Below, piece after piece: positions 43,062 to 44,713 of a stretch of DNA of 64,000 nt. The position numbers were made by a program, and so were the translations under genes. Below the pieces are notes generated by a model. It was not told the DNA's origin, searched no databases, and worked only from the letters and a program-made list of their open reading frames with translations. The DNA is from Acidiluteibacter ferrifornacis (GTDB lineage: Bacteria; Bacteroidota; Bacteroidia; Flavobacteriales_E; Vicingaceae), in NCBI RefSeq assembly GCF_009909615.1, contig NZ_WWNE01000012.1:186001-250000 (forward strand), given 5' to 3'. Within the stretch, counting starts at the first letter, position 1. Every line of letters begins with the position of its first letter.

Positions 43062-43104
43062 TTTAGCCGTTTTGTTTAAGTCATCAAATTAATTCACTAT
43101 TGTC

Positions 43105-43124
43105 CGATTAAAAATTTTGAATCG
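43105..43124. promoter_or_regulatory. 20-nt near-perfect palindrome, putative operator
   Basis: CGATTAAAAATTTTGAATCG is symmetric in all but one pair (A opposite G). It overlaps the putative -33 element (TTG 43117-43119) of the hairpin RNA candidate and lies upstream of the GNAT gene on the other strand, so a dimeric regulator could control either. Confidence 0.4.
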
Positions 43125-43143
43125 AAAACGAATGCTAATTTTA
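43117..43143 (+). promoter_or_regulatory. Putative promoter of the hairpin RNA candidate
   Basis: TTG (43117-43119), 16 nt, TAATTTTA (43136-43143) resembles TTG-N17-19-TAnnTTTG with A in the last place. The predicted start (about 43148-43150) coincides with the first base of the long hairpin. Confidence 0.35.
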
Positions 43144-43147
43144 TGTT

Positions 43148-43290
43148 GTCCCTTGAATTTTTGTTTTTGGAAAATAAAATGAATCCTTAGAGAAACCGGG
43201 AAGCTTCAATCTGTGATTGGAGATCACCCGGCTGAACTTAGGATTTATAAAATTTGGAGGAAATAAAAATTCAAAGGACGAGCTTTTTTT
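43148..43290 (+). ncRNA. Candidate structured RNA: 132-nt gapless hairpin followed by a T-run
   Basis: Bases 43148-43190 pair with 43237-43279 in exact register over 43 positions (31 Watson-Crick and 4 G-U pairs). Inside are CCGGG / CCCGG (43196-43200 with 43227-43231) and an 8-bp apical stem CTTCAATC / GATTGGAG (43204-43211 with 43215-43222) with loop TGT. Four bases after the outer stem a run of seven T begins (43284-43290), giving terminator character on +. A promoter-like element ends just before the hairpin. It codes for nothing visible. Alternatives are a MITE-like miniature element, or a 5' UTR structure for the minus-strand GNAT gene. The remaining sequence to 43471 is AT-rich, with a weak hairpin at 43297-43317. 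Confidence 0.45.
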
Positions 43291-43471
43291 GTTTCGTTTT
43301 TTTGGTGGACAAAAAAATGAAAAATCTAAATCAAAAAAAGTAAGTCCCTATTTTAAGATAAATTAAATGAAATCTTCATTTTTATGGAATAGTTCATTTA
43401 TTACTATGTAGTTACACTTTAATGTCTATTTAATTCGATATACTTTTGTTTTTTGTCGTACAACAGTGAAA

Positions 43472-44713
43472 TTAATTATTCTCAATTAATTTAATACTCT
43501 TTTCTAGGCAATAAAATTCAAATTCTCGCTCAGGAAAATGGACTTCTCCACGGATGTAATACGCTCTTTTTTTATAGAACTCAATCACCTTTTTGTTCTG
43601 ACTATAGGCATCTAATCGGATAGAAGTATAACCATTGTCAATTGCATATAACTCAGCAAAATCCATCATTTTAGTGGCATAACCGTTGCGTTGATGAATG
43701 GGATTCACGACCAATCGATGAATGACTAATATTTTAGAATCATCAAATTGCCAATTCACTGTACTATAAACTGCTTCTTGAATTTCGCTGATGTTAATTG
43801 CGCCAATAATCTCATTACCATGTGATAGTACAAATAAATAACCTTTCCTTAAATCATCTTCAATTATGGATTGGGTGGGATAGTTATCCGTCCATTGAAA
43901 AATAGAGTTTCGTTCCAATTCCGCCTTTGCAGCTAAGTAAATTTGAAACAGTTTATCAGCATCAGAAACGGTTCCCTTTTTTATATTGAGTTGTTCAACT
44001 ATAGTAGTTTCTGTATTGGTTTCGTAAACAATCAATCCTTCATTCGTTTCGTCCAATTGTTCTAAAAGCTGTCCATTCTTATTCCATACCGCACTTTGGC
44101 CTGTACTCATAAAGTTGTCGCAAAAACCAATGCTATTCACCATTAAAACTGGAGTGTTAAATTCCTTTGCAATGGAAGGGAAGTAGGAATTGGCTTTCTC
44201 TATTCCGTGATTTGGTTTGGCAACACTCGCAATGTAAATATCAGCTCCGTTATTATGAGCGTTTATAAAATGTTCACGTTGCAATAATTCATAGCAAATT
44301 CCAAAAGCAATTTTAGTTTGATCAATGACAATGTATTCTTGATTTTTACCTGCTACAAAATAGGGCAATTCGTCATCATGCAGGATTTGCTTGGAATAGA
44401 CTAACCGATTTTTGTTGGGTTGAAAAAGGAGCAGACTTATTCTAACTCCATCTTTATAAGGAGTGGGCATTCCAACTCCGATAGTAATCTTATTTTGATC
44501 TGATAACTTCTGAAATGGATCAAATAGTTCATCATCAATTGACGCAGTCAACTCTTTGGCCAATTCAGGCTCGTAACCGGTAATGGACAATTCAGGAAAA
44601 ACAATCAAATCTGCATTCAGTTTAATTGCCTTTTTAATCAATCGAATATGATTCTTGATGTTCTTTTGAACATTCCCTTTAGTAGATTTTAGTTGGGCAA
44701 GACAGATTTTCAT
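43472..44713 (-). CDS. Carbon-nitrogen hydrolase fused to a C-terminal GNAT acetyltransferase
   Basis: The 413-residue protein has a nitrilase-superfamily domain (about residues 1-235) with the complete triad Glu41 (FPELSITGYEP), Lys108 (YSKQILHDDELPYF) and Cys140 (FGICYELLQREHF). A GNAT domain follows (about 245-405) with VIHRLVVNPIHQRNGYATKM and KVIEFYKKRAYYI. The hydrolase acts on amide or nitrile carbon-nitrogen bonds. The known bifunctional family has the GNAT half first, whereas here the order is reversed. The substrate is unknown. The GNAT acetyl-CoA loop reads QRNGYA, close to consensus. It is a single-gene unit on the minus strand. Confidence 0.88.
   Translation of the reverse strand: MKICLAQLKSTKGNVQKNIKNHIRLIKKAIKLNADLIVFPELSITGYEPELAKELTASIDDELFDPFQKLSDQNKITIGVGMPTPYKDGVRISLLLFQPNKNRLVYSKQILHDDELPYFVAGKNQEYIVIDQTKIAFGICYELLQREHFINAHNNGADIYIASVAKPNHGIEKANSYFPSIAKEFNTPVLMVNSIGFCDNFMSTGQSAVWNKNGQLLEQLDETNEGLIVYETNTETTIVEQLNIKKGTVSDADKLFQIYLAAKAELERNSIFQWTDNYPTQSIIEDDLRKGYLFVLSHGNEIIGAINISEIQEAVYSTVNWQFDDSKILVIHRLVVNPIHQRNGYATKMMDFAELYAIDNGYTSIRLDAYSQNKKVIEFYKKRAYYIRGEVHFPEREFEFYCLEKSIKLIENN

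Follow-up and report, generated by a model that had tools for sequence, protein, structure and literature searches.

The long hairpin in the 64,000-nt stretch of Acidiluteibacter ferrifornacis DNA analysed here (the window) is the centre of a 374-bp MITE (43095-43468) that lies between two genes. Inside this MITE sits a folded module of about 175 nt which is older than the MITE and independent of it. The reading of the whole as an IS4-type MITE with an independent structured module as cargo, the REP-like interpretation of that module included, was given a probability of about 90%; the REP-like, single-strand reading is the best inference for the module and is much less certain than the MITE itself.

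A DNA search of the window's genome returned a second copy, of 96% identity, on contig C18. In the pairwise alignment, similarity to this second copy continued well past the hairpin on both sides, and the element was found to extend to 374 bp, with no open reading frame of at least 60 aa inside. It is bounded by 18-bp terminal inverted repeats, CACTATTGTCCGATTAAA on the left (43095-43112, plus strand), an exact match to the left end common to copies in three genomes, and CACTGTTGTACGACAAAA on the right (43451-43468, minus strand), located by a pattern search with the left end. These two ends are alike at 14 of 18 positions and different at four. Comparison of the flanks revealed a perfect 9-bp target-site duplication, AAATTAATT, at 43086-43094 and again at 43469-43477. 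The minus-strand CN-hydrolase/GNAT gene (43472-44713) has its stop codon within the right-hand duplication, so that it was left whole by the insertion. No empty orthologous site could be shown, the flanking gene being without a close homologue in the two congeners.

Dispersed copies of the MITE were present in all three genomes of the genus, with 15 and 11 further matches in the other two, which have the common left end CAYTRTTGTCCGATTAAA. When this left-end pattern was searched for, an inverted partner was located 280-480 bp away at many places and about 1.4 kb away at three. Exact duplications were seen in eight of 16 elements, each of exactly 9 bp, and agreement at 8 or more of the 9 positions in 11 of them; set against the duplications observed in these 16 elements, re-dealing of the right flanks in 2000 trials gave a mean of 0.65 and a maximum of 5. 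The earlier note had raised a MITE-like mobile hairpin as an alternative and had named dispersed copies with target-site duplications as its mark; the terminal repeats, 9-bp duplications and dispersed copies described here bear that alternative out. No match to the MITE was found among plasmids and phages.

Some copies depart from the common plan. The second MITE of the same genome (L004:6082-6471) has at its borders, where 9 bp is usual, a near-perfect direct repeat of 16 bp (ATTCAATATCC[T/A]ATTT). Two copies, L010 (G002:C10:12070-12334) and L012 (G002:C1:164286-164595), have an extra GC-rich palindrome, CCTGTCCGCGGCAGGCGGG, within the 3' internal loop of the hairpin core, which makes three levels of nesting: palindrome in module in MITE. 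Most copies in the congener G001 (L011, L013, L014, L018 and L022) contain a nested stretch of about 45 nt between CCGG and the apical stem, with a hairpin of its own (AATGTGACCTT...AAGCCACATT). Other middles (GTTCTTTTGTCTT...AAAATGAACC modules) were seen between the same MITE left ends in L017, L023, L031 and L032, and the MITE family is therefore modular.

Ends in common with an autonomous IS were found through G001, which holds two intact elements of about 1.4 kb (1401 bp each) coding for a 335-aa transposase. This protein scored 193.9 bits against NF033592 (IS4 family; cut-off 115) and 78.7 bits against PF01609, above the cut-off, and contains the YREK motif in the form Y-(2)-R-(3)-E-(6)-K (YKKRWSIELLFKQLK). 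The ends of the IS, CATTAGTGT and CACTACTGT, have the form CA------T, and several MITEs of that genome have the very same right end as the IS, CACTACTGTCCGATAAAA. IS copy L191 has a 9-bp duplication, TTTATAAAA, and none was found at L190, the second intact copy for which both ends were read. Members of the IS4Sa subgroup measure 1150-1750 bp, with ends CA------T and direct repeats of 8-10 bp (PMC2266710). The G001 IS is alike in its DDE_Tnp_1 domain and YREK motif, its length of 1401 bp, its CA------T ends and its 9-bp duplications, the label IS4Sa-like being set against the published subgroup table (PMC2266710). Judged from this congener, a 1401-bp IS4-family (IS4Sa-like) IS is the likely parent of the window MITE, which differs from it in that its interior carries a foreign structured module absent from the IS. 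The window's own genome gave neither a DDE_Tnp_1 match nor a relative of the G001 transposase, and the MITE copies there are therefore probably stranded. Searches of the G001 IS against plasmids gave no match.

The fold of the hairpin was compared with shuffled sequence, as had been proposed in the earlier note, and proved real. The minimum free energy of 43140-43295 was -52.3 kcal/mol, against -30.8 ± 3.4 in dinucleotide shuffles (z = -6.28), with none of 200 shuffles as good. The two arms described there (43148-43190 with 43237-43279) do pair, but not without interruption: the 43 positions comprise 31 Watson-Crick pairs, four G-T pairs and eight mismatches, and the fold has conserved internal loops in place of ungapped pairing throughout. 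Fold and homologues together delimit hairpin A of the inner module at 43146-43281 (plus strand), with an outer stem followed by the GC-rich stem and the 8-bp apical stem, both present as described. Covariation and model matches define its conserved core (43174-43253, plus strand; models R1 and R2), which reads CTTAG-AGAAA-CCGGG-AAG-stem-ATCA-CCCGG-CTGAA-CTTAG. The run of seven T (43284-43290) is also present; it had been taken for a terminator-like end and is instead the linker to hairpin B, TTTCGTTTTTTTG (GTGGA) CAAAAAAATGAAA (43292-43322, plus strand), whose position after hairpin A is kept in most copies. Hairpin A with its invariant internal loops, and hairpin B after it, make up the module of about 175 nt, and a model search confirmed that there is a single such element within the 64-kb window.

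The conservation of this structure extends well beyond the genus. A 14-nt core word, searched in bacterial genomes, located several sites in Mangrovibacterium marinum with the same internal loops and different stems; this species belongs to another order of Bacteroidota. In an alignment made without structure, the covariation score was 0.352, against 0.133 after shuffling and at most 0.102 with slid partners, and both sides had changed in 11 of 23 pairs. An alignment of 59 copies, which was fitted to the covariance model and includes two antisense reads, scored 0.590 against 0.214 after shuffling and at most 0.163 with slid partners, with double changes in 19 of 22 pairs. The stems therefore covary in relatives, the point on which the earlier note had asked for a check, and the compensatory changes beyond chance mark the inner module as a conserved structured nucleic acid. 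As the stems covary, the module folds as one nucleic-acid strand when acting. The conserved structure is genuine, but its behaviour is that of a dispersed repeat, not of a gene. No Rfam family matched the element at the gathering threshold, and at three loci searched up to an E value of 1 there was no match, apart from one chance-level match elsewhere.

The start of hairpin A lies close to GTCCTTGA or GGCATTCAA in the majority of copies; after it come a short linker and then hairpin B, as in CTTGAC-TTTTTTC-GTTCTTTTTGT (GTCAAG) ACAAAAAGGAC. The loop of hairpin B is often complementary to the linker, with pairings such as CTTGAA/TTCAAG, CTTGAT/ATCAAG, CTTGACC/GGTCAAG, GCTCGCC/GGCGAGC, TGGGC/GCCCA, TCTG/CAGA and TGTG/CACA. 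The alignment of hairpin B being too uneven for formal pair counts, a re-dealing of loops was used, in which the longest loop-linker pairing of 30 distinct sequences averaged 5.10 bp against 3.79 bp when re-dealt (maximum 4.43 in 5000 deals). This pairing is absent from the window's own subfamily, and the pseudoknot therefore characterises the family, not the window copy.

A first model, built from the structure-free alignment, found copies in 17 of 46 genomes of the family and in eight of its 16 genera. With the refined model, the window's own genome gave 14 core copies; among 39 further genomes of the class, two had copies (29 and 6); and M. marinum gave 85 matches, or about 60 without antisense duplicates. 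It found none in 13 other Bacteroidota and none in 15 genomes of other phyla, the best 117-150 candidates per genome being scored in these scans, so that absence is provisional. In a scan of 395 genomes across the phylum the best 11 candidates per genome were scored, and absence there carries no weight. An alignment of ten own-genome copies, taken from loci other than the two best MITE loci, showed sharp common ends with divergent flanks. Beside one of these copies, L392, lies a lone IS4-type end; for the others, a scan that covered nine of the ten loci and allowed up to 4 mismatches gave no convincing pair of such ends. A copy of the module in a different genus of the family (G003) is enclosed by weaker IS4-type ends, and the duplication around it is possible but imperfect. 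The stand-alone module had no match among plasmids. In M. marinum the module repeats in tandem every 422-438 bp at G440:C22:15079-16001 and C7:142039-142555 (L366 and L367). At L281, copies of the module at G000:C11:452-530 and 2636-2714 follow two homologous adjacent genes, which suggests that gene and module were duplicated together.

By their neighbouring genes, 19 copies of the module lie between convergent genes, 28 between co-directional genes and three between divergent genes, and among those between co-directional genes 12 are oriented with the genes and 16 against them. The placement between gene pairs and this mixed orientation fit a tolerated mobile repeat and not a strand-bound 3' UTR. 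A common neighbouring gene was sought and rejected, as ten proteins flanking copies in M. marinum and in genome G496 were unrelated and mostly the products of ordinary cellular genes. Folding energy was lower on the plus strand in 49 of 53 copies, and the z-scores of the two strands were hardly apart (-4.02 against -3.70). In the fitted alignment G-T pairs outnumbered A-C pairs on the plus strand by 48 to 12, whereas after symmetric realignment their ratio equalled that of a composition control. The single strand in which the module acts would be either single-stranded DNA, during replication, or a transcript.

It was also considered that the module might be a REP/BIME-type repeat moved by a RAYT (a Y1 HUH transposase), in which case the IS4-type ends would be incidental. 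The module is palindromic, intergenic and dispersed, occurs at times in tandem arrays, and lies mostly near gene 3' ends, as the excess of convergent over divergent placements illustrates. Y1_Tnp genes occur in 29 of 46 genomes of the family, and RAYTs of subclass 2.6 from Bacteroidetes have been reported with 'atypical secondary structures' (PMC6006769). However, no copy of the module was found within 1.5 kb on either side of 30 sampled Y1_Tnp genes, so that the linked RAYT of a REP repeat was not seen, and Y1_Tnp was no more associated with the module-bearing genomes (10 of 17) than with the module-free ones (19 of 29). Mobilisation of the inner module by a RAYT was therefore rejected for want of both proximity and co-occurrence. 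Y1 transposition (IS200/IS605) is not known to produce terminal inverted repeats with a 9-bp target-site duplication, and for the window copy, which has both, this explanation is refuted; as an account of the whole it was considered unlikely.

Slightly less likely still is a role as transcription terminator or 3'-end stabiliser, with copies retained for their benefit to neighbouring genes, an explanation that would draw on the preference for gene 3' ends and on the T-run after the hairpin. Any tolerated insertion is expected to show such a gene-end bias, however, and the lack of an orientation preference relative to co-directional genes, the patchy presence among related genomes and internal loops whose invariance exceeds what a terminator needs all speak against it. 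The self-contained, regulated sRNA gene first proposed in the earlier note, made up of operator, promoter, 132-nt hairpin and terminator, would fit the strong fold with its stems covarying in relatives, the promoter-like element and T-run, and the RNA-like excess of G-T pairs in the fitted alignment, but is improbable and was rejected as the main reading, since the element is bounded by terminal inverted repeats and target-site duplications, its copies are dispersed in either orientation, the 'operator' (a palindromic 20-mer indeed present at 43105-43124) shares positions with the terminal inverted repeat and is disrupted in copy L009, the 'promoter' (TTG-N16-TAATTTTA, present at 43117-43143 on the plus strand) is kept among the nearest MITE copies only and is missing upstream of stand-alone copies of the module, the G-T excess is that of composition alone once realigned symmetrically, and the strand difference in folding energy is mostly gone as z-scores.

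The IS4-type MITE with an independent module as cargo can be put together as follows. An IS4-family (IS4Sa-like) DDE transposase would act in trans on the 18-bp ends of the MITE and would have inserted it into AAATTAATT, where the CN-hydrolase/GNAT gene has its stop codon, and so produced the 9-bp duplication; transposition itself and mobilisation in trans are read from the ends and duplications. As cargo, the MITE would have brought with it the older, independent module of hairpins A and B, whose single-stranded form may be recognised by some protein and which would have spread both alone and by riding in MITEs. The MITE is in this respect a further example of a hitch-hiker; what may set it apart is that the search of its own genome gave no parent IS. 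For the module, stems that covary between orders, together with fixed internal loops, mean that it must be read as a folded single strand, and the covariance model makes its recognition, its transcription and its spread (one genome has about 60 copies, most others have none) testable.

Set against known systems, the MITE adds a member to a well-known type. BrickBuilt/MITEPgRS of Porphyromonas gingivalis (PMC4596501) and MITECca01 of Cardinium (PMC9769881) are likewise short and transposase-free, with the ends of a full IS, and the nested repeats of BrickBuilt are predicted to form long stem loops (PMC4596501). They differ in belonging to the IS5 and IS982 families and in sequence, and the available parts of these accounts describe no inner module with cross-genus covariation (PMC4596501, PMC9769881). 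Like REP/BIME repeats with their RAYTs, the module is a dispersed intergenic palindromic repeat that also forms tandem arrays, but it is far longer (about 175 nt), has two hairpins, and showed neither a linked RAYT nor a GTAG tag. With the structured RNAs of Rfam it shares covarying stems and invariant internal loops, though it matches no family there, and nothing describing the repeat was found in open-licence papers. Only tentatively, and at less than even odds, might the module be regarded as a mobile structured nucleic acid from Bacteroidota that forms an undescribed class, with tandem-GA-like internal loops and a loop-linker pseudoknot, its single strand being read by some enzyme, which colonises genomes alone and nested in IS4-type MITEs. 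A new class is not claimed, mainly because the structures of RAYT subclass 2.6 (PMC6006769) are known by description only. Together with the nested MITEs of P. gingivalis (PMC4596501), the 'atypical secondary structures' of those RAYTs (PMC6006769) are the nearest precedents.
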